DNA of 64,000 nucleotides from Nitrospira sp. (GTDB lineage: Bacteria > Nitrospirota > Nitrospiria > Nitrospirales > Nitrospiraceae): NCBI GenBank assembly GCA_024998595.1, contig JACOEK010000002.1:496001-560000 (forward strand), in the 5' to 3' direction. Below, piece by piece: positions 49,637-59,685 of the stretch. Numbering within the stretch: position 1 is the stretch's first letter; the number at the start of each line of letters is the position of its first letter. The translations under genes and the position numbers were made by a program. The notes below the pieces were generated by a model, which was given only the letters and a program-made list of their open reading frames with translations, made no database searches and was not told the DNA's origin.

Positions 49637-52600
49637 TTACTTGGATTTGCCCCCATCGGCCGGTTTCTTACCGCCGACCCAGGCCACCGACGGGATCTGG
49701 ACTACGAGATCAAGGCGCTCGTGCGCTTCATTGTCCTTGAGGTCCGGTCCTACACTATAGAGGACGCCCTTTTTCATATTCACCAGCATGGGCAGTCCGG
49801 TGAAGGGATCGTAGAGCCCCTGGCCCGCCTTGGCCAGTCTGGTCAGCAGGTCCTGCTCCGGCGGAGTCCGACGCAACCAGGCCTGCAACGATACCAACCG
49901 CAAGCGCGCATCGGTTTCCAAAACCCGACCGGCGTACGTTTCCCATGTGGGCAGCCGATCCACCCCGACAAGGCTTTCGATTGGATTCATCACCATATCG
50001 CTGACGCCGTAAGGAGGAAGACGGACAAATTGCGATTGTTTGGGCAGGTCGGCATACCGTCCGTCTGCCGCCGCTTTTCCCGCAGCATCGTAATATTCGG
50101 CGTAGGCATTGAATCGGCGCTGCTTCGGCAATGGCAACGCGGCCGCTATCGCACCATAGAACGGACGAGTATCGGCTCGATCCTGGCGGACCGCGTCATC
50201 CAATGTCTTGGTGGCCAGCACAAACTGGCTTTGCATCGGCCAGCGGAGCGACTGTTCGGGTTGCTCTAACGGCCGTGCCAATTTGGCCATTCGGCTGACA
50301 TATCGCTCATCGAGGTCCGGCCGCTGCAAGAGGCCGCTCATGAGCGCCACGTCATCATTCATCGCGGCACTGGCCAGCATTTTGACCGGCAACGACTTGG
50401 CCTGTCCCAATACCGTCCGCCAGGCTGTGAGATCGGTTTCCAGCCGACCGACACCCGTCTCAACGTCTTGCGCAAACCCGTCTGCAAGATAGAGCCGATG
50501 AGTCTGGAGAATCAGACCGCAGTTCGGGCTGATCGCCTGACCATACCCGACATCTTCGAATGGCTTGTTCAGCCATTGCTTGTAGCGACCCAGGCTGACC
50601 TCCGCTTGCGACAGCCAGCTTTTGAGGCCGGTCGCATCCAGCTGCATCTGCAAGGCGGGATCACCGGCCTTCATCCACTTGCCGGCCGATGCCGCCGATG
50701 CGCTCTGTCCCCCGTCCGGCGAATACCCTTCGCCGGTCAGGCAGGTCTGCGTGAATGCCCGGTCGGCGCCCTCAACTCGTCGGTCCATTCCTGCCTGCAC
50801 GGGATCCTGATTCGCGGCAGCACCGAGGCCGAGCAGGAGGAGATAGCCATTTTTGCTGGAGTCTTGCAACGTCTGTTGAGGCACCGACGTCATCGTACGA
50901 TAGGCTGCGCTGGGTTGCTCCTCGAGTATCACCCAGGTCAGGGCCACTGCAGCGACAGTGCCTCCGACCAGAAGCAGGGCGAGACCGACTAATGCCAGAA
51001 CCAGCACCACGAGTGATCGCGTCGTCGACACTCCCGCACCGACCAGAGAAGCCGCCGCCTCACCCACCCGGCTCCATACTCCGACGCCGGTAGGCTGGAT
51101 CGGTTTGGGACGATGGGGCGGCTCTTCCGCATGGACGGCCGCGGTAACCTGCTCGACCCGCTCATCAGGCTGTTCCGCCTCCACTGCGACAGGAACCGCT
51201 TCTTCAACCGGCGGTAGGGCGACAGGAGCCAGCGGCTCAACAGGAACGGGATCCGCTGGGGGAGCGGCACTGACTTCAGGCCTCACGGGCTCCGCAGATT
51301 TTTTCAGCCAGCGGGTCAGCATGTTGCCCGTGGAAGGTTTCGGTGTCGGTGCTGACGACGCATCTTCCCAGAGAATATGCAACCCATCACTCGTCGCGGC
51401 GTCAGAAGGAGCGGGGGTAGCTGAGGTCACCTCCTCTGACTCCACAGCAACAGCCGGCTCGGCAACCAATTCTACGGACTGTTCTGGTTGCACAGGCTCA
51501 AGGATCTGGGGCGACTCGATGAGCTGGCTCGAGTCATCAGCCGGGACAGCAATCGGCATCTCCGCCGATGCAACAGACAGGGTTTCTTGAACTGAGTCTG
51601 TCTGAACAAGCGCGATTTCTGCGAGTGGGACTTCGGCGGCGATCGCCGGAGAACCGACTACGTCATATTCGTCCGAATTCGAAACTGGTTCGGGCATCAC
51701 CGGCGAGAACTCTACGGCCGGACTATCCGGCGGCTCTTCGGCCTGCGGCTCCAGAACCACCGGTTCGTCCAGTGGAACCGATTGATCTGCAGTGGGAGAC
51801 GATGCGATGGGAGCGTCGATGATCTCATCCACCAGGGCAAGCTCCGGGGAAGCGTGCTCCTCCTGCGTGCTTACCACTTCCGCCGATGGCTCCACCTGAA
51901 GTGAAGGCTCCGAGGATTCTGCTGCAATCGGTTCGTCGCGCGTCACGGCGATGGTGAACTCCGTGACTGGCGCCACTGGGACAGGAGCAGGCTGAACCGC
52001 GGCTTGCGGAGGGATCGTATCGCGTTCAATCAAACGCAAGGGAGCTGCTGCGGATGCTTCCGTCACAAGTCCTGCTGATGGCTCAATGGCCGGCAGGAGA
52101 ATGGACGTCTCCGCAAGAGTCGCCTCCGTTTCCAGCGGATTATGGAGGTGAGCATTGGGCGGCTCGTTCTGCGCGTCCGGTGAGAGAAGACGGAACCCGC
52201 GCGCCGATTCATCAGCACCAACTACTGAAGGCTCGATGGCGACAGCCAGTGGCTCCGCCTGCGACGCTGGCTCAGGCGTCTCCGGCACGGCGGGCAAAAT
52301 GAGCGTGGCATCCTGTGTCTGCCCGCCGGATTTGCCGATTTCTCCGACTTCGATAGAGACTGAACCGAATTCCGGTTCCGACTCTTGACGGGGAATGGTG
52401 ACCTCTTCCACTTCGATCTGTTCCCAGGGCATGGGCGCGGATAACGTCAATGAGGCGCCGGCTGGATCAAGTGTCGGCTGCCACGGCGAGGCTTCGCAGG
52501 ATGCTGCTGTCACCTCGACAGAATCAGAGGCGACCGTGGCTGCGGGAGCCGGCTCATCAGGGGCGTGACGATCTAACGCCTGGTCCGGCTCTGCACTGTG

Positions 52601-54406
52601 AAGTGTCTGAGCAGGCGCAGGAGAGGATTGCATTGCTGCCACCGCAGCCAGAATTTCGTCCCAGGAAAGTCCGGATGAAGTGATCTCCGAGGGACTCGAA
52701 GCGGGAGGTGGTTCTATTGGCGTCTCTGCGGGACCCGTGAGGGCCTCAATGACGGGAGTCACCGCCTCAATCGCTGATGACGACCGTTCCTCCGTCTCAC
52801 ACGATTCCGACGCAACTTCTGCCACGCTTGATGCCGATGGTGCGGCCGGTGGAGGAATGGGGATAGGATTCTCTTCGACCTGATCCCAAGGCATGGACAC
52901 CGGAGTCATCGGTGTTTCGACGATCGGGTGGCTGCCGCTTTGCGACAGCACTTCGATGGTCGGCGGCGTTGGTTCACTGGAAGGAGCCGGCGGCGACTCG
53001 GCCTCAGGAGACGGCACCTCTGCAAATTCATGGACTATCGGCACATGACTCGAAGGCGGCGATGGTATCGCGATCGCCACTTCCGCAGCCTGATCCCAGG
53101 GCATGGGGAGAGGACTAGAAAGCTCTTCAGCAATCGATTGGCTGCCGTTCTCTGCTTCCACTTCAATGGTGGGAAGCCCTGCTTCAACCTTGAGGCTCGA
53201 TACCGCTTCAGGCTCAGGGGAGACCGGGGTCGCATCGTCGGATATCGTCGATCCCTGACTCACAGTTGCGGGAGGAATGACGACGGCAACATCTTCAACC
53301 TGGTCCCACGGCATCGGTGCCGGGCTCGAGGGCGCTTGAGTAATTGGGTCGGCACCCGCCTCGACCAAGGCCACGCTTGCAGGCGGGGACTCCACAGGGG
53401 CCGCAGGAGGTGGCAATTCAGTTTCGCCCGTCGTCACAGCAGGAAGTGGATCGAGACCGGACAGTTCATTTTCAACGGCAGATTTACTCGTCTCTTCCGT
53501 GGAGTCCACCGTGGACAAGGAAGAATCTACAGGAGCCGGCGGCGCCGGATTCGCAGGCAGTTCCAATGTTTCGACGTCACGATGCTGATCGAGCTCCTGC
53601 TTCTGTGGGTCAACCGCTTCCACAATCTCGATCGGCGAGGGAGAAAGAACGACTGATTCCATGACCTCCGTCGATGTTTCTCCCACTGAAACAGGCGCAT
53701 CTTGCGGAGCAGGCATGTCAGAAGGAGGCCCATCCACCTGCTCCCAAGGCGGAGCCACCGCTTCTGCGACTTCTACACCTTCGGGAGACTCACTTTCAGG
53801 GGCGGGAACTGAAGGCTGGGGCGTGGTTTGCAGCACTTGCCCGGTGACCGTATCGAACATTGCGGAAAGGCGGAATGCGACCGGGCTCCCGGGGGCAATT
53901 GAACGAATTCGTGCAAAGAGATCGCTGGGGTGGTTTGGTTTGTCCGTGTCCGGATCTTCCAGCAAGACTTCAACCGCCTTGCCGTACTCCGCCACCGCCG
54001 CCATGACGTCGCCTTTTTCCTCGTAGACGCGTCCCAGCATTTCCAAAAAGGGCACATACCGTGGGCCTGCCGTCAGATATTCCCGCAGCAGCGACTCCGC
54101 CAACCAATAGTCCTGCCGCTCCATGGCTTCCCGGGCCAGGGATTCGAACGCTGTCCTGGCACTCATGAGACTTCCCAGCCGCAGATGGAGGGTGGCGAAG
54201 AGACGCCTGGCTTCGGCGTTGAGCGGGTCGAGTGCGAGGAGGTCTTTGAGGGCGGCGGACGCACGGCCGTACTTGCCGGCGTTCATTTGTGTAATCGCGT
54301 CCTCAAGAAGCGCCGACTTCTTGTTGTAGCCGATGCTGCCCTTCTTCTGGACTTTCGGGGGAACTTTTTTATCGGACTTCAGGGGAGGTTTTTTATCGGA
54401 TCGCAC
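49637..54406 (-). CDS. Giant repeat-rich one-TM protein (TPR-like head, long acidic region, periplasmic domain)
   Basis: A 1589-residue protein. Residues about 30-185 form TPR-like helices (LLEDAITQMNAGKYGRASAA, SLLREYLTAGPRYVPFLEML). Residues 200-1100 are a disordered Pro/Ala/Glu/Ser-rich region with several PW(D/E)Q motifs (about 220, 366, 436, 506, 581 and 660; three in near-70-residue repeats). One membrane segment is at 1131-1160. The rest (about 1165-1589) is a periplasmic domain with GYLLLLGLGAAANQDPV and DPFTGLPMLVNMKKGVLYSV, the latter like pseudopilin G C-terminal parts. The start is GTG 54406 with AGGG upstream. Function unknown; probably an envelope scaffold. Confidence 0.85.
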   Translation of the reverse strand: MRSDKKPPLKSDKKVPPKVQKKGSIGYNKKSALLEDAITQMNAGKYGRASAALKDLLALDPLNAEARRLFATLHLRLGSLMSARTAFESLAREAMERQDYWLAESLLREYLTAGPRYVPFLEMLGRVYEEKGDVMAAVAEYGKAVEVLLEDPDTDKPNHPSDLFARIRSIAPGSPVAFRLSAMFDTVTGQVLQTTPQPSVPAPESESPEGVEVAEAVAPPWEQVDGPPSDMPAPQDAPVSVGETSTEVMESVVLSPSPIEIVEAVDPQKQELDQHRDVETLELPANPAPPAPVDSSLSTVDSTEETSKSAVENELSGLDPLPAVTTGETELPPPAAPVESPPASVALVEAGADPITQAPSSPAPMPWDQVEDVAVVIPPATVSQGSTISDDATPVSPEPEAVSSLKVEAGLPTIEVEAENGSQSIAEELSSPLPMPWDQAAEVAIAIPSPPSSHVPIVHEFAEVPSPEAESPPAPSSEPTPPTIEVLSQSGSHPIVETPMTPVSMPWDQVEENPIPIPPPAAPSASSVAEVASESCETEERSSSAIEAVTPVIEALTGPAETPIEPPPASSPSEITSSGLSWDEILAAVAAMQSSPAPAQTLHSAEPDQALDRHAPDEPAPAATVASDSVEVTAASCEASPWQPTLDPAGASLTLSAPMPWEQIEVEEVTIPRQESEPEFGSVSIEVGEIGKSGGQTQDATLILPAVPETPEPASQAEPLAVAIEPSVVGADESARGFRLLSPDAQNEPPNAHLHNPLETEATLAETSILLPAIEPSAGLVTEASAAAPLRLIERDTIPPQAAVQPAPVPVAPVTEFTIAVTRDEPIAAESSEPSLQVEPSAEVVSTQEEHASPELALVDEIIDAPIASSPTADQSVPLDEPVVLEPQAEEPPDSPAVEFSPVMPEPVSNSDEYDVVGSPAIAAEVPLAEIALVQTDSVQETLSVASAEMPIAVPADDSSQLIESPQILEPVQPEQSVELVAEPAVAVESEEVTSATPAPSDAATSDGLHILWEDASSAPTPKPSTGNMLTRWLKKSAEPVRPEVSAAPPADPVPVEPLAPVALPPVEEAVPVAVEAEQPDERVEQVTAAVHAEEPPHRPKPIQPTGVGVWSRVGEAAASLVGAGVSTTRSLVVLVLALVGLALLLVGGTVAAVALTWVILEEQPSAAYRTMTSVPQQTLQDSSKNGYLLLLGLGAAANQDPVQAGMDRRVEGADRAFTQTCLTGEGYSPDGGQSASAASAGKWMKAGDPALQMQLDATGLKSWLSQAEVSLGRYKQWLNKPFEDVGYGQAISPNCGLILQTHRLYLADGFAQDVETGVGRLETDLTAWRTVLGQAKSLPVKMLASAAMNDDVALMSGLLQRPDLDERYVSRMAKLARPLEQPEQSLRWPMQSQFVLATKTLDDAVRQDRADTRPFYGAIAAALPLPKQRRFNAYAEYYDAAGKAAADGRYADLPKQSQFVRLPPYGVSDMVMNPIESLVGVDRLPTWETYAGRVLETDARLRLVSLQAWLRRTPPEQDLLTRLAKAGQGLYDPFTGLPMLVNMKKGVLYSVGPDLKDNEAHERLDLVVQIPSVAWVGGKKPADGGKSK
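52742..53365 (-). repeat. Three ~70-residue internal repeats in the giant protein
   Basis: Residues about 348-415, 416-485 and 486-555 align as three units, each starting near (V/E)EAxxGSxxI, with MPWDQ at the same place (365, 435, 505) and a following I/V-P-rich strand. Further PW(D/E)Q-like copies (about 580 and 659) are more diverged. Consistent with tandem duplication. Confidence 0.8.
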
Positions 54407-54644: not shown

Positions 54645-55469
54645 ATGCCACGCATCCTCATTTTCTCTGACTTGGACGGAAGTCTGCTGGACACGACCAC
54701 CTACTCGCACGAAGACGCTACCGATGCCCTGGCGGCCATCCAGCAACGCGGTGCGACTCTCATCCTCGTCTCCAGCAAAACTCGTGCGGAAATGGAGCCG
54801 CTCCGCCGTGGTCTGGGCAATCGCCACTCATTTATTGTCGAAAATGGCGGAGCCGTGTATGTTCCCAACGGCACATTTCCCTTTCCCCTTGAGCAAGCCA
54901 TACCCCGCGGCGCCTATCAGATCCTCCAGCTTGGAACTCCCTACGCCCACCTTCGAACGGCGTTGAACGAGATCCGCCAGGAACTTGGTGATGGATTGCG
55001 GGGATTCGGAGATCTGACCCTTGAAGAGGTGATGCAGCTCACAGGAATGTCAGCCGCGGATACCCGGTTGGCCATGCAACGGGAGTACGATGAGCCGTTC
55101 GTGATTGATGGGGAAGGCATAGCATGGCAGGATCTGCGTGCCGCGACAGACAGGCGCGGCCTGCGTTGCACACGCGGGGGCCGGTTTTACCACTTGATGG
55201 GAGCGAATGATAAGGGGATCGCGAGCCGGCGGCTGATTGAATGGTATGGACGGCTAGTACGGAACGAGGGACAGACCCTGGTGACGGTCGGCCTTGGAGA
55301 CAGCCTCAATGATCTTCCTATGCTGGAAGTCGTGGATTATCCTATCCTTGTGCGGAAACCGAATGGCTCCTATGACCCGGAGGTGCAGCTCCCCCGCCTC
55401 ATCCATGCCCATGGAGTGGGCCCGGTCGGATGGAACCGCAGCCTCATCGAGCTCTTACCGACTCTCTGA
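54645..55469 (+). CDS. Mannosyl-3-phosphoglycerate phosphatase-type HAD hydrolase
   Basis: A 274-residue HAD type IIB enzyme. Motif I FSDLDGSLLD (D-x-D), motif II TLILVSSKTRAEM, motif III Lys in ANDKGIASR, motif IV VGLGDSLNDLPML. The length and the DxD-SSKTRAE and GAND patterns fit the MPGP family, which dephosphorylates mannosyl- or glucosyl-3-phosphoglycerate. The matching synthase-like glycosyltransferase is at 56555-57856. Substrate sugar cannot be told. It is convergent with two membrane protein genes. Confidence 0.9.
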   Translation: MPRILIFSDLDGSLLDTTTYSHEDATDALAAIQQRGATLILVSSKTRAEMEPLRRGLGNRHSFIVENGGAVYVPNGTFPFPLEQAIPRGAYQILQLGTPYAHLRTALNEIRQELGDGLRGFGDLTLEEVMQLTGMSAADTRLAMQREYDEPFVIDGEGIAWQDLRAATDRRGLRCTRGGRFYHLMGANDKGIASRRLIEWYGRLVRNEGQTLVTVGLGDSLNDLPMLEVVDYPILVRKPNGSYDPEVQLPRLIHAHGVGPVGWNRSLIELLPTL

Positions 55470-55526
55470 CGGTTGAACGAAGAACAGTCGCGCAGCATGT
55501 GATCAAAATTTGAAACGAGCGGGGCA

Positions 55527-55748
55527 TCAGTGCCCGCGTTGTGGCAGAGTGGTTCGGCGGCTCAACAGGCCTACCACAAGCCCTCCGGCAAATCCTGCCC
55601 CGATGGCGCAGGCCACGAGCCCGAGCAGCGAACGATTGAACACAAACCGGCTCTCCCTGCGATGCGGATAACGCGGCACGGCGGCTTCCCCACCCAGCCA
55701 GCGGCGCGCTTTGGCCTCGCCGTCGACATCGGAAATCTTATTGGTCAT
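55527..55748 (-). CDS. Small one-TM protein
   Basis: A 73-residue protein with one membrane segment near the C-terminus (NRSLLGLVACAIGAGFAGGLVVGLLSRRT), a Gly-rich helix, and a basic, charged N-terminus. I do not recognise the family. It lies 41 bp after the channel-type gene, on the same strand, and may be an accessory subunit. The alternative is a shadow, but gene position and composition favour coding. Confidence 0.62.
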   Translation of the reverse strand: MTNKISDVDGEAKARRWLGGEAAVPRYPHRRESRFVFNRSLLGLVACAIGAGFAGGLVVGLLSRRTTLPQRGH

Positions 55749-55789
55749 ACCATGTCCTTTATCAGTGATAAGCGGAGACCGCCCAGCCG

Positions 55790-56497
55790 TTAGAGATGCC
55801 GCAAGTCATCCGGTGCGCCATCTCGCGTTCGAACCGACAACCCGCGCTCGAGATAGTCTTTGGCCAGGTCTTTCGCGCCCAACCCGAATGCGATCGCCCC
55901 GGCCATGACGATGCCTCCCAGAGTAATCCCGAAGCCGACGACCACGATATTTTGCGCAATGCCGAGCTGCTCCAACGCCATGGCCACCGCCAACAATTGA
56001 ATCCCCCATCGCGAGCAGGTCGCGACCAATCGTGCCGGAGGGAGTCCCGCATTGACCGCGGCGATCAGCACGGCCTGAGAGACAAAGTTGGACAACAACC
56101 AGCCGGCCACCAAAATCAGGCCTGCTGTGACCAGATGCGGCACATAGGCGAGGAACGACTTGGCAAAATCGTTGATCGGTTGCAGATTGAGCGCGCCCAA
56201 GGCGGCGACAGTCGCAAAAATCATCACCAACCAGTAAGCCGCTTGCCCTATCAACCGAGACGGATCCGTTTTCACGCCGCCGCGCAACAGCGCGCCGGTG
56301 ACTCCCAATCGATCAAAGAGTCGGTCCAACCCGACCACGCGTAGCAGCCGCTCAAGCGCTTGGCTCGCCGTCCAGGCAACTACCAGGCCCGCAAAGAAAA
56401 TGATGGACATGGCCAGAAGGCTCGGCAACACCGCGAGCACCTGCCGCGCCATCAGCTCCAGTGGATCGAGGAGCCCCTTCTCAAAAAATTCCTTCAT
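55790..56497 (-). CDS. MscS-like/conserved TM-helix channel protein
   Basis: A 235-residue membrane protein with about four hydrophobic segments: LAMSIIFFAGLVVAWTASQA (about 28-48), AAYWLVMIFATVAALGALNL (about 85-105), VTAGLILVAGWLLSNFV (about 123-141) and a Gly-rich helix FGITLGGIVMAGAIAFGLGA (about 185-208). The last resembles the pore-lining helix of MscS and of proteins with the conserved TM-helix domain. It has no large cytoplasmic MscS vestibule, so it belongs to the short group. Likely a pressure- or osmolarity-linked channel; it sits next to a compatible-solute synthase gene. Confidence 0.82.
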   Translation of the reverse strand: MKEFFEKGLLDPLELMARQVLAVLPSLLAMSIIFFAGLVVAWTASQALERLLRVVGLDRLFDRLGVTGALLRGGVKTDPSRLIGQAAYWLVMIFATVAALGALNLQPINDFAKSFLAYVPHLVTAGLILVAGWLLSNFVSQAVLIAAVNAGLPPARLVATCSRWGIQLLAVAMALEQLGIAQNIVVVGFGITLGGIVMAGAIAFGLGAKDLAKDYLERGLSVRTRDGAPDDLRHL

Positions 56498-56554
56498 AAT
56501 TCCCTCCTCCGGCCTCGACTGCAGCCCGCCTTCAGATGGATCGAGTCATGACGA

Positions 56555-57856
56555 TCAGCTGGCATGCGGTTCGTTCCAGCGTGCGACCAAATAGGATTTG
56601 TCCTTTTCGAACGCCTGGCACAACGCTTCAATTCGACCCTCGGCTTCGCTCGATGTGAGTCCCTGAGTATCCAGGACGAAGGAGGCGGTGCGACCCAGGT
56701 ACAAGGGCGTGAAGGCTTTGAGCACGTGATCGAGGGGCAAGACACGATTCCGATAGGCGACAGCCGCGTCGTAGACGACTCGCGCCCAGAGACTGTCGGC
56801 AATCCGGAAGTCCTGCAGGGAACAGGTTCCTAGCGGCCGCAGACTCTGCCTGGTCCCCGGAGCGAGAATCTGATCCCAGATCGTACCCAGATCGCTCAGG
56901 CCTTGCCGAAACGTGCTGATCATACGATCGACGTTCACATTGACCGGCTCCACGCCGACTTCGTACTGGAACCCGAACAAGGGGACCGCATTCGAGCCCT
57001 CTGTCTTGCCCCATACCGCATAGTGATCTTCCATCAGCGCAAACACCGCGCCGAGCACTTGAACGAGCATAGCGGAGAGATCTGCCGCCGGGTCCTTGGG
57101 GTTGTGGATTTTGGCGCCCAAGAAACTCTGACAGACGCGCGCCCCGCTAGCGATCGCTTCCGTGGTCATCCAGATGTCGATTCCGAACTTCGCGACTTCC
57201 GACTCCCACACGTGCTTGTCCAGATAATGCTGTGCCAATTGGCCTGAAAATCCGAAATCGCCGCCGATCGGTTGCCTGATTCGATGACCGTAGAGGGTAC
57301 GCGTCAGCGGATAGACGATGCTGTTTGTAATGGTCCCGTCATATTTGTGACGGAGATAATACGGCGCGACATAGTCGAAGCCCTGCTCGAACACCGGACT
57401 CACCAGGAGTTCAATCCATTCCGGCGTAATGCTCCGTAAATCTGAATCGACGACGGCACAGGCTTTGGCTTTCAGGCGTCGGGCAATCTCGAAAATCGTG
57501 CGAAATGCGCTGCCTTTTCCGGGGATACCATGATAGGGCGTGATGATCTTATGGAGTGAACTCTGCTGGTCGCCGATGAAGAGCGTTTTGAGATCGACAA
57601 CCGCCTGTGACACCACCTGCTGCGTGCCGTCCGTCGAGCCGCCGTCCGAATTCACCAGGACGGCGCGGGCTTCCGGGAAATATTTGGCCAAGCCGGCGCT
57701 CACCGCCTTGACGACATGGCCGATCGTTTCCACATTGTTGAAGCTTGGAATGCCGACCAAAATATCCGTATGGGCAAATTGGTCAACTTGCGCCTCGGTT
57801 TCAGGCGTCAGCGGGGTGGTATGGGTCGTATCAGGAAGTTGAGGGCCAGGGGTCAT
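56555..57856 (-). CDS. Glycosyltransferase of mannosyl/glucosyl-3-phosphoglycerate synthase type
   Basis: A 433-residue GT-A enzyme. VGIPSFNNVETIGHVVKAV (about 33-51), VLVNSDGGSTDGTQQVV, the HGIPGKGSAFRT stretch, AVVDSDLRSITPEWIELL (D-S-D metal motif, about 138-142), IRQPIGGDFGFSG and GIDIWMTTEAIASGA are arranged like GT78/GT81 enzymes, which make mannosyl- or glucosyl-(3-phospho)glycerate. With the HAD phosphatase gene nearby this suggests a two-step route to a compatible solute. Donor (GDP-mannose or NDP-glucose) is not decidable from sequence. It is upstream of the channel-type gene by 57 bp. Confidence 0.85.
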   Translation of the reverse strand: MTPGPQLPDTTHTTPLTPETEAQVDQFAHTDILVGIPSFNNVETIGHVVKAVSAGLAKYFPEARAVLVNSDGGSTDGTQQVVSQAVVDLKTLFIGDQQSSLHKIITPYHGIPGKGSAFRTIFEIARRLKAKACAVVDSDLRSITPEWIELLVSPVFEQGFDYVAPYYLRHKYDGTITNSIVYPLTRTLYGHRIRQPIGGDFGFSGQLAQHYLDKHVWESEVAKFGIDIWMTTEAIASGARVCQSFLGAKIHNPKDPAADLSAMLVQVLGAVFALMEDHYAVWGKTEGSNAVPLFGFQYEVGVEPVNVNVDRMISTFRQGLSDLGTIWDQILAPGTRQSLRPLGTCSLQDFRIADSLWARVVYDAAVAYRNRVLPLDHVLKAFTPLYLGRTASFVLDTQGLTSSEAEGRIEALCQAFEKDKSYLVARWNEPHAS

Positions 57857-58148: not shown

Positions 58149-58514
58149 TTACCCAGCATCAGAAATCACGATCTGTTCTTTTCGATCCGTACTGAGTGAG
58201 GGCATCGTGACATGAGCACTCACGAAATCGCTCAATCGCAGCTGATCGTCGGCATCCATGAGTATGGGATCGACCCCCAGCCGTGACTCACTGGCCCAGC
58301 GGATCGTCGCCAACCGCACCGACAGCGGCTTGGACTCTCCCGGAATATGTAGATGCAATTGAAGCAGGTCCCCGGCTTGCAGCCCTTTGAGTCCGGTTCG
58401 TGACCATCCCGGTATCGAAAGATCGAGCATCCGGCCGTTCCAGACCAGCAACCCATCCTCAGATCGTGATCCGGTACATTCGACGATAAAACGCGGACGA
58501 TTCTGTTGTTCCAT
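58149..58514 (-). CDS. PilZ-like protein with degenerate first motif
   Basis: A 121-residue PilZ-fold protein: RFIVECTGSRSEDGLLVWNG, then MLDLSIPGWSRTG (D-x-S-x-x-G present), LLQLHLHIPGESKPL and VRLATIRWASESRLGVDPIL. The usual R-x-x-x-R before the first strand is not clear, so c-di-GMP binding may be weak. The start ATG 58514 is the second of two adjacent ATGs, with GGAGG 4 nt upstream. Third in a row of PilZ genes on the same strand, with spacing 180 bp to the next. Confidence 0.82.
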   Translation of the reverse strand: MEQQNRPRFIVECTGSRSEDGLLVWNGRMLDLSIPGWSRTGLKGLQAGDLLQLHLHIPGESKPLSVRLATIRWASESRLGVDPILMDADDQLRLSDFVSAHVTMPSLSTDRKEQIVISDAG

Positions 58515-58696
58515 CATTCCTCCAAGCAAACGCCTCGGCAGAATATGAAAAACAACGGATTGTGGGATAGTCCCCGAAAGTGGGGGATCAGGTCACACGG
58601 GCAAGCGGGTTTTGGGGATGGGAAATGAAAACAGTACTGCGGAATCTCAAACCAGGCAGGACCGTAAGACTGGATGATAGGAAAACGACCGGTTGA

Positions 58697-59041
58697 CTAT
58701 GCGACTCGCGAGGAATCGGCCGATTTCAGTACGCTTTCGACAAATTTGTGAATGCGCGCTTCGGCAGTGGCACTCAGCTTCACGGTTTCAAGCCCGAACA
58801 CACGGTCCTTCACCCACTTCACAGTCACTCCCTCAACGTCGATCGCCTTGGGTTGGTCAGGCAAAAAGACGCGTAACGTCAGTTTCATGCCGACCGTGAC
58901 GGGCTTATCGCCATCGATCCGCCAGCCCTTGACGGAAAGATCGCACACTTTGCCCGTTCCGACCAGTCCCTCCCCCAGGTAATAGAGGAAGCAGCTGACA
59001 GGCACGCGAGAATGTGAACGAGACGTCTGTGATTTGGCCAT
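58697..59041 (-). CDS. PilZ-domain protein
   Basis: A 114-residue PilZ protein. RSHSRVPVSCFLYYLG includes R-x-x-x-R, and KVCDLSVKGWRIDGDKP includes D-x-S-x-x-G, the two c-di-GMP-binding motifs; LTLRVFLPDQPKAIDVEGVTV and RVFGLETVKLS complete the barrel. A single-domain receptor for c-di-GMP. Start is taken at ATG 59041; an upstream frame is less likely. It is between two other PilZ genes, all minus. Confidence 0.9.
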   Translation of the reverse strand: MAKSQTSRSHSRVPVSCFLYYLGEGLVGTGKVCDLSVKGWRIDGDKPVTVGMKLTLRVFLPDQPKAIDVEGVTVKWVKDRVFGLETVKLSATAEARIHKFVESVLKSADSSRVA

Positions 59042-59197
59042 GGGTGTGAGCGAGGGGATGCGCACCACGCGGCATCAGCCTCGGCTAGGAATCAGTCTAC
59101 TGAACTTGCTAAAAATGACCAAGCAGATTTTCGTTCCCGGCAGGGCGAACATATCCCATCGCCACACACTGATTGAGACCGTGAACACGAGAGAGGG

Positions 59198-59572
59198 CTA
59201 GACCAACGCGGTCACAAACTGTTCGAGGCGGGCCTGCTCATCGGCTTTGATCGCATTCACTTCAATGCCGAATTCCTGGCCGCGGGACCAGCGAACAATC
59301 GCGCGGTCGACAAATACGGTCGGGTGCTGACCGGGAAGAAACACACAGAGTGTGACAATGGTTCCGGGGTCGACCGGATGCGTCCCATCGACACGCCAAC
59401 CATTTAAGGAAAGGTTCCAAGCGATACCGCTTCCCTGGAAGGCATCGCAGGAATAATAGACCGAACATTGGACGGGAAAACGACGAAACGATCGCACTTG
59501 AAATCGGACGCCGACAGCAGCAGGAGGACGATGCTGGACCGATGGGACGAGCTGTTTGTTGCCGCCGGTCAT
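59198..59572 (-). CDS. PilZ-domain protein
   Basis: A 124-residue PilZ protein, first of three in tandem. RSFRRFPVQCSVYYS supplies R-x-x-x-R and IAWNLSLNGWRVDGTHP supplies N-x-S-x-x-G; VTLCVFLPGQHPTVFVDR and VRWSRGQEFGIEVN follow. Predicted c-di-GMP receptor. ATG 59572 has AGAGGGG upstream; a longer frame runs into the tRNA. The three PilZ proteins differ, so they are old paralogs. Confidence 0.9.
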   Translation of the reverse strand: MTGGNKQLVPSVQHRPPAAVGVRFQVRSFRRFPVQCSVYYSCDAFQGSGIAWNLSLNGWRVDGTHPVDPGTIVTLCVFLPGQHPTVFVDRAIVRWSRGQEFGIEVNAIKADEQARLEQFVTALV

Positions 59573-59607
59573 GGTGCCCCTCTCGAACCCTGCATGTCGA
59601 CTTAAGT

Positions 59608-59685
59608 TGGGGTGAGTGACGGGTTTCGAACCCGCGACCTCCGGATCCACAATCCGGCGCTCTAACCAACTGAGCTACACCCACC
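59608..59685 (-). tRNA. tRNA-His (GTG)
   Basis: Read on the minus strand. The acceptor stem GTGGGTG pairs with CACTCAC (one G-U), an extra 5' G (59685) faces C73, as in all tRNA-His, D-loop AGCTCAGTTGGTTAGAGC, anticodon stem CCGGA/TCCGG around TTGTGGA (anticodon GTG, complement of 59648-59650) and T-arm GCGGGTTCGAAACCCGT. CCA is encoded (59608-59610). It lies 36 bp from the first PilZ start and may share a transcript with it. Confidence 0.98.

Follow-up and report, generated by a model that had tools for sequence, protein, structure and literature searches.

The glycosyltransferase (GT) gene found in this region of a Nitrospira genome is followed by the gene of a short MscS-like channel in nearly all of its orthologues. 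Because this linkage is kept across several phyla, and even where the active site of the GT has been lost, it suggests that the two proteins work together as a unit that makes and releases (or senses) a solute. The GT is GT78-like, and a phosphatase and a GpgS encoded in the same genome provide candidate steps for a glycosylglycerate osmolyte. We tentatively propose, with somewhat less than even confidence, a module in which GpgS and the phosphatase would make glucosylglycerate, the GT would extend it and the channel would release it.

Locus and host genome

The window is the whole stretch of 64,000 nucleotides of contig JACOEK010000002.1 that was analysed. The original prediction described four genes here, and all four are found where it placed them, see Table 1. 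The host genome has a size of 4.23 Mb in 15 contigs, and its closest named relatives are Nitrospira defluvii-type genomes. On the minus strand the order of transcription is GT, channel and small transmembrane (TM) protein, with intergenic gaps of 57 bp and 41 bp, respectively. The HAD phosphatase gene lies a further 57 bp away and is convergent with these genes; thus, a shared transcript is possible only for the GT, the channel and the small TM protein. Profile searches with the small TM protein give no family match above cut-off, and its tblastn matches are found only in loci of the N. defluvii group (L005-L013, L035-L051), i.e., within the same genus.

Table 1. Genes of the glycosyltransferase-channel locus, with positions in the window.
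Feature	Position	Strand	Length	Basis
MPGP-family HAD-IIB phosphatase	54645-55469	+	274 aa	TIGR01486, phmmer
Small single-TM protein	55527-55748	-	73 aa	genus-restricted; no family above cut-off
Short MscS-like channel	55790-56497	-	235 aa	PF05552 and NF033912 above cut-off
GT-A glycosyltransferase, GT78-like	56555-57856	-	433 aa	profile, AF2 fold, motifs

The glycosyltransferase resembles mannosylglycerate synthase

When a profile of 22 relatives of the GT is compared with the PDB, mannosylglycerate synthase (MGS, 2y4k) is the first match with 5.5e-6 and GpgS the second with 2.5e-4. The AF2 model (pLDDT 85.6) matches the GT78 MGS with 1.8e-15 in Foldseek. Against MGS 2bo7 it reaches a VIA Z of 32.7 with 355 residues aligned, covering residues 31-424 of the model with the C-terminal helical domain included, while against GpgS (GT81) Z is 19.6 over 224 residues. 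The predicted structure has the GT-A fold followed by the C-terminal helical domain as in 2bo4, so the GT is GT78-like, the MGS fold being far closer than that of GpgS.

The residues that bind the donor, the metal and the acceptor carboxylate in MGS and GpgS have been described (PMC2581804). K76, D100, D102, D192 and H217 of MGS correspond to K114, D137, D139, D227 and H251 of the GT, and T177 is the counterpart of the acceptor-carboxylate threonine (T139 in MGS, T187 in GpgS); all six are invariant in the 22 sequences. The motifs named by the original prediction are real, with PGKG at 112-115, GGDFGFSG within 195-205 and the DxD present as VDSDL at 136-140. Compared with the MGS of Rhodothermus marinus (GT78; 2bo4, 2bo7, 2y4k), the GT shares the fold over nearly its whole length as well as DxD, PGKG, QP-GG, GID, the metal His and the acceptor Thr. 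However, it is only about 18% identical to MGS, and in Nitrospirota it is always accompanied by, and sometimes fused to, a GpgS and adjoins a channel.

The GT and the phosphatase had been predicted to carry out two successive steps from a nucleotide sugar and 3-phosphoglycerate, which would make the GT itself an MpgS or GpgS. There is a weak similarity to GpgS (NF010496, 2e-13). However, the score of 50 bits is far under the cut-off of 262 bits, NF040724 gives no match, the GT78 fold is closer and the genome contains a separate GpgS. PF09488, the mark of the GT55 MpgS, is absent from the GT and from the entire genome. This role for the GT was rejected on these grounds, and we give it hardly any credence. 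The wider theme of the prediction, a glycosylglycerate osmolyte with a channel of its own, is supported, but not the GT as an enzyme acting on 3-phosphoglycerate.

GpgS and the phosphatase accompany the glycosyltransferase

In most Nitrospira, the protein directly upstream of the GT (403-414 aa) is an archaeal-type GpgS (NF040724, 1.6e-106). The GpgS of the host genome is instead located away from the window (G000:C14:101938-103158). It is 73% identical, and next to it are RlmI-like and TPP-enzyme genes, the same ones that border the complete cluster of other Nitrospira; in the N. defluvii group the operon is therefore split.

Among 148 Nitrospirota genomes, the GT and GpgS are found together in 60 of the 63 GT genomes and are both absent from 82 (Fisher 9e-34, with related genomes included in the counts). 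The remaining three GT genomes (G006, G025 and G034) encode a GpgS-GT fusion of about 812 aa, whose N-terminal half scores above the bacterial GpgS cut-off. Thus, the GT has been combined with two types of GpgS that are unrelated to each other, an archaeal type alongside it and a bacterial type by fusion. A second phylum was represented by 247 genomes, mostly Deltaproteobacteria/Syntrophaceae by locus titles where named. Here, 84 of 88 GpgS genomes contain some GT78-like protein, and an archaeal-type GpgS occurs in 17 of the 21 genomes with a GT of the channel-linked clade described below. The other four are without a recognisable GpgS, and because of them we no longer regard GT and GpgS as strictly obligate partners. 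Both these four genomes and the position of GpgS outside the cluster in the N. defluvii group count against the proposed module.

The phosphatase is of the MPGP type, as had been predicted: it scores 229.8 bits with TIGR01486 (MPGP subfamily; cut-off 164.75), has the motifs DLDGS at 9 and GDSLND at 218, and matches the Thermus MpgP 3ztw with 1.1e-38 in phmmer. It falls below the cut-off of the equivalog mannosyl-3-phosphoglycerate phosphatase model (TIGR02461, 220.5 vs 244.35 bits), which is consistent with, but not decisive for, a GpgP rather than a strict MpgP role. In Nitrospirota, it is found in 59 of the 63 GT genomes. The two-step GpgS/GpgP pathway is accordingly divided here between the window, which has the HAD, and the rest of the genome, which has the GpgS (NF040724), while in most other Nitrospira both lie in one operon. 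The cluster differs from this pathway in its additional GT78-like GT and channel, and in the displaced GpgS of the N. defluvii group.

Because 60 of the 63 GT genomes also have GpgS and the other three encode a fusion of the two, we read GpgS and the HAD as the probable makers of glucosylglycerate, and the GT as either an extender of this product or a direct maker of a glycosylglycerate. In the latter case, the GT would be a one-step synthase transferring mannose or glucose straight to D-glycerate, in parallel to the GpgS/HAD route and again with the channel as release valve. The full-length match of the model to MGS (Z 32.7) argues for this, as do the invariant counterparts of MGS K76, D100, D102, T139, D192 and H217. 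The conserved T177 would suit glycerate as acceptor no less well than glucosylglycerate, and perhaps better, which speaks against an extending enzyme. Further, glycerate kinases adjoin the GT cluster in some relatives, and in R. marinus one- and two-step routes co-exist. However, a self-sufficient enzyme should also occur without GpgS, which it never does in Nitrospirota (63/63 counting fusions), and the fusion of GT and GpgS suggests consecutive steps. We consider direct synthesis possible, but rather unlikely.

The neighbouring genes in relatives of the cluster fit a small sugar-glycerate solute, as judged from their sequences. Glycerate 2-kinase genes adjoin the cluster in three loci (L112, L113 and L127) and one is fused to the HAD in a fourth (L110); a sugar ABC importer and trehalose genes are found as well. 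Alternatively, glucosylglycerate could be the primer of a longer intracellular polysaccharide that the GT elongates, with the channel as a co-regulated osmotic safety valve that is not specific for the product. GpgS does start the synthesis of MGLP in mycobacteria (PMC2581804), and glycogen/trehalose genes occur near the GT paralogues and among the neighbours. However, no other MGLP-type genes are seen beside the cluster, and a small solute accounts better for the sugar ABC importers and the glycerate kinases, which makes a primer role very improbable.

The short channel lacks the MscS beta-domain

In line with the short MscS-like channel that had been predicted, the protein scores above cut-off for the PF05552 helices and for NF033912 'mechanosensitive ion channel' (108.2 bits vs 100). 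The PF00924 beta-domain is absent from the channel and from all of its about 24 aligned relatives, which match PF05552 only; four PF00924 proteins are encoded elsewhere in the host genome. In the AF2 model (pLDDT 78, pTM 0.53) the top nine fold matches are all TM regions of MscS, with Z of 9-11 (best 10.6), i.e., under the helical-bundle level of about 13, and the profile match has an E of 0.13. The channel has PF05552 helices in common with CmpX and other such proteins, and the TM region of MscS is its best fold match, albeit a modest one; it is set apart from MscS and these proteins by its 235 aa, the missing PF00924 domain, a D..H-L tail and an obligate GT neighbour.

This conserved C-terminal tail (...PDDLRHL) falls in a part of the model where pLDDT is below 50 and disorder is predicted. 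The D..H-L pattern is present in 70 of 84 GT-linked channels vs 2 of 19 unlinked ones, and these two belong to, or adjoin, GpgS clusters. As the unlinked channels are distant relatives, part of the pattern could be due to inheritance alone.

The linkage between glycosyltransferase and channel is conserved across phyla

In Nitrospirota, the channel is the next gene downstream on the same strand in 64 of 66 GT orthologues, and in 15 of 15 families. The two GTs without a linked channel are one at a contig edge and one partial ORF. The second phylum gave 24 high-scoring channel matches, of which 22 directly follow a GT78-like GT. A tree of 104 GT78-like proteins, which was made with a quick search and has some long branches, contains one clade of 74 rows (SH-aLRT 99), of which 73 have a channel neighbour and one lies at a contig edge. 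This clade spans Nitrospirota, Desulfobacterota, Acidobacteriota and Methylomirabilota. Outside of it, 29 of 30 GT78-like proteins are without a channel neighbour, the exception being L186, which has only a remote PF05552 protein some 1.4 kb from its GT, and the channel-neighbour label changes only twice on the tree. The linkage is therefore far beyond chance, and the tree clade and the counts from the second phylum rule out that it is confined to Nitrospira.

Neighbouring genes were taken from a scored, non-overlapping gene call, in which some genes are missed or misframed, such as HADs overlapping spurious ORFs and the channel of one GT paralogue (L115), which was recovered by a separate search.

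In related genomes the channel and the GT are thus hardly ever apart, and the GT does not group with unrelated GT2 enzymes, so that neither of the two outcomes that would have spoken against the original prediction was found. Two genomes (G102 and G145) contain GpgS-channel-HAD operons without a GT; therefore, the channel has a link to the glucosylglycerate pathway that does not depend on the GT.

Degenerate paralogues retain the channel

The GT has paralogues at about 40% identity, of which 15 were examined. Two of them (L122 and L141) have kept the catalytic motifs and have no channel. The other 13 lack one or more of the motifs (DxD, Lys or His), and all 13 have kept a channel 12-59 bp downstream. 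In the paralogue of the host genome itself VDSDL has become VEGQL, and its channel is found at G000:C7:28955-29599. Twelve of the 13 form one clade nested inside the catalytic, channel-linked clade, and the degenerate paralogues are mostly found in trehalose/GlgE clusters with TreT, GH13, GlgE and maltokinase. The D..H-L tail is present in 13 of 13 channels linked to them. Judged from the sequences, the degenerate paralogues favour an additional, non-catalytic role of the GT protein together with the channel.

It can be speculated that the GT belongs physically to the channel complex as a subunit, replacing the missing cytoplasmic domain by docking on the D..H-L tail and coupling the level (or synthesis) of the solute to gating. 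The dead GT of the trehalose/GlgE loci would then be a pure solute-sensing gate subunit. We regard this as unlikely. A related idea, which we find less probable still, is that the GT is chiefly a regulatory partner that activates GpgS and/or gates the channel through complex formation. The channels retained by the 13 degenerate paralogues and the distribution of the tail are in line with it. So is the GT of Thermoproteus tenax, which forms a complex with the trehalose synthase TPSP and thereby activates it, and whose gene shares a transcript with that of a TM-only MscS channel (PMC3634074). However, in the clade of the window GT every catalytic residue is invariant, so that selection acts on catalysis in this group; the GT of T. 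tenax belongs to GT4 (GT-B) and is not homologous; and the tail could reflect common descent and not a function.

Proposed mechanism and its precedents

From the computed gene identities, GT78 fold, conserved catalytic residues, GT-channel linkage, and co-occurrence and fusion of GT and GpgS, we infer the acceptor, product, direction of flux, release and docking as follows. In the glycosylglycerate module, GpgS would convert a nucleotide sugar and 3-phosphoglycerate into glucosyl-3-phosphoglycerate, which the HAD of the window would dephosphorylate to glucosylglycerate. The GT would then most likely attach a second sugar, glucose or mannose, to glucosylglycerate or to its phosphorylated form, giving a di-glycosylglycerate of the MGG/GGG type. 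The presumably co-transcribed channel without a beta-domain would serve as a dedicated release valve for this product on osmotic downshift, a function suggested by the linkage, and might be docked to the GT via its C-terminal tail.

The closest precedent, in concept, is the msc-gt-tpsp operon of T. tenax, reported as unique to Thermoproteales, in which the MscS channel is likewise reduced to its TM region (PMC3634074). Both systems bring together a solute synthase/phosphatase, a GT and a TM-only channel of MscS or MscS-like type. However, the solute is trehalose there and would be a glycosylglycerate here, the GT of the window is GT-A and GT78-like, not GT4, and the window cluster has no TPSP. 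If GpgS acts first and the GT second, the product would be of the same type as MGG (Petrotoga, Rhodopirellula baltica) and the di-glucosylglycerate solutes.

In the openly accessible literature, we found no report of a glucosylglycerate or mannosylglycerate pathway in Nitrospira; the osmolytes named in Nitrospira genome papers are trehalose, glycine betaine and glutamate. If the proposed module is true, this genus would have a glycosylglycerate osmolyte route, and the GT gene would be a candidate for the step that adds the second sugar of di-glycosylglycerates. It would also be a widespread bacterial case in which osmolyte synthesis and release are genetically welded together. The degenerate GTs that have retained their channel make the question of whether the enzyme gates the channel directly testable.

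Fusions, second copies and neighbouring genes

Fusions of GpgS to the GT78-like glycosyltransferase (GT) are found in three Nitrospirota genomes, and a fused kinase-HAD protein adjoins the GT at another locus. In two genomes a GpgS-channel-HAD operon lacks the GT; these operons are second copies, as the full set is also present in both genomes.

The second GT paralogue of the window's genome has lost the DxD and other motifs, and a channel still follows it. It is flanked by TreT/GH13 on one side and by GlgE, maltokinase and GlgB genes on the other. The overlapping ORFs upstream of GpgS in this genome are possibly a single broken gene.

In the window, the PilZ trio is placed between the GT and pyrF and is kept across the N. 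defluvii group, where the 1589-aa protein adjoins the HAD. This protein has N-terminal TPRs followed by a very long Pro/Glu/Ala-rich linker and a TM segment.

Further GT78-like subfamilies, without the channel, occur in the second phylum (loci L181-L199). Several of these genes (e.g., L194, L195, L197, L198) have a small response-regulator-like gene as their downstream neighbour, and others are set in glycogen clusters.

Coordinates of the features
Feature	Position	Strand
Second GT paralogue, window's genome	G000:C7:29658-30857 (L115:7644-8963)	
Channel after this paralogue	G000:C7:28955-29599	
GpgS-GT fusion, ~812 aa	L116:5251-7644	
GpgS-GT fusion, ~812 aa	L133:1535-3973	
GpgS-GT fusion, ~812 aa	L134:1225-3660	
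Glycerate 2-kinase (MOFRL/DUF4147-like) fused to MPGP-type HAD	L110:3270-5726	
GpgS-channel-HAD operon	G102:C185:12079-14874	
GpgS-channel-HAD operon	G145:C1:1511724-1514519	
Two overlapping ORFs directly upstream of GpgS, window's genome	L131:4014-6309	
Three tandem PilZ-domain proteins	window 58149-59650	-
1589-aa protein	window 49637-54406	-
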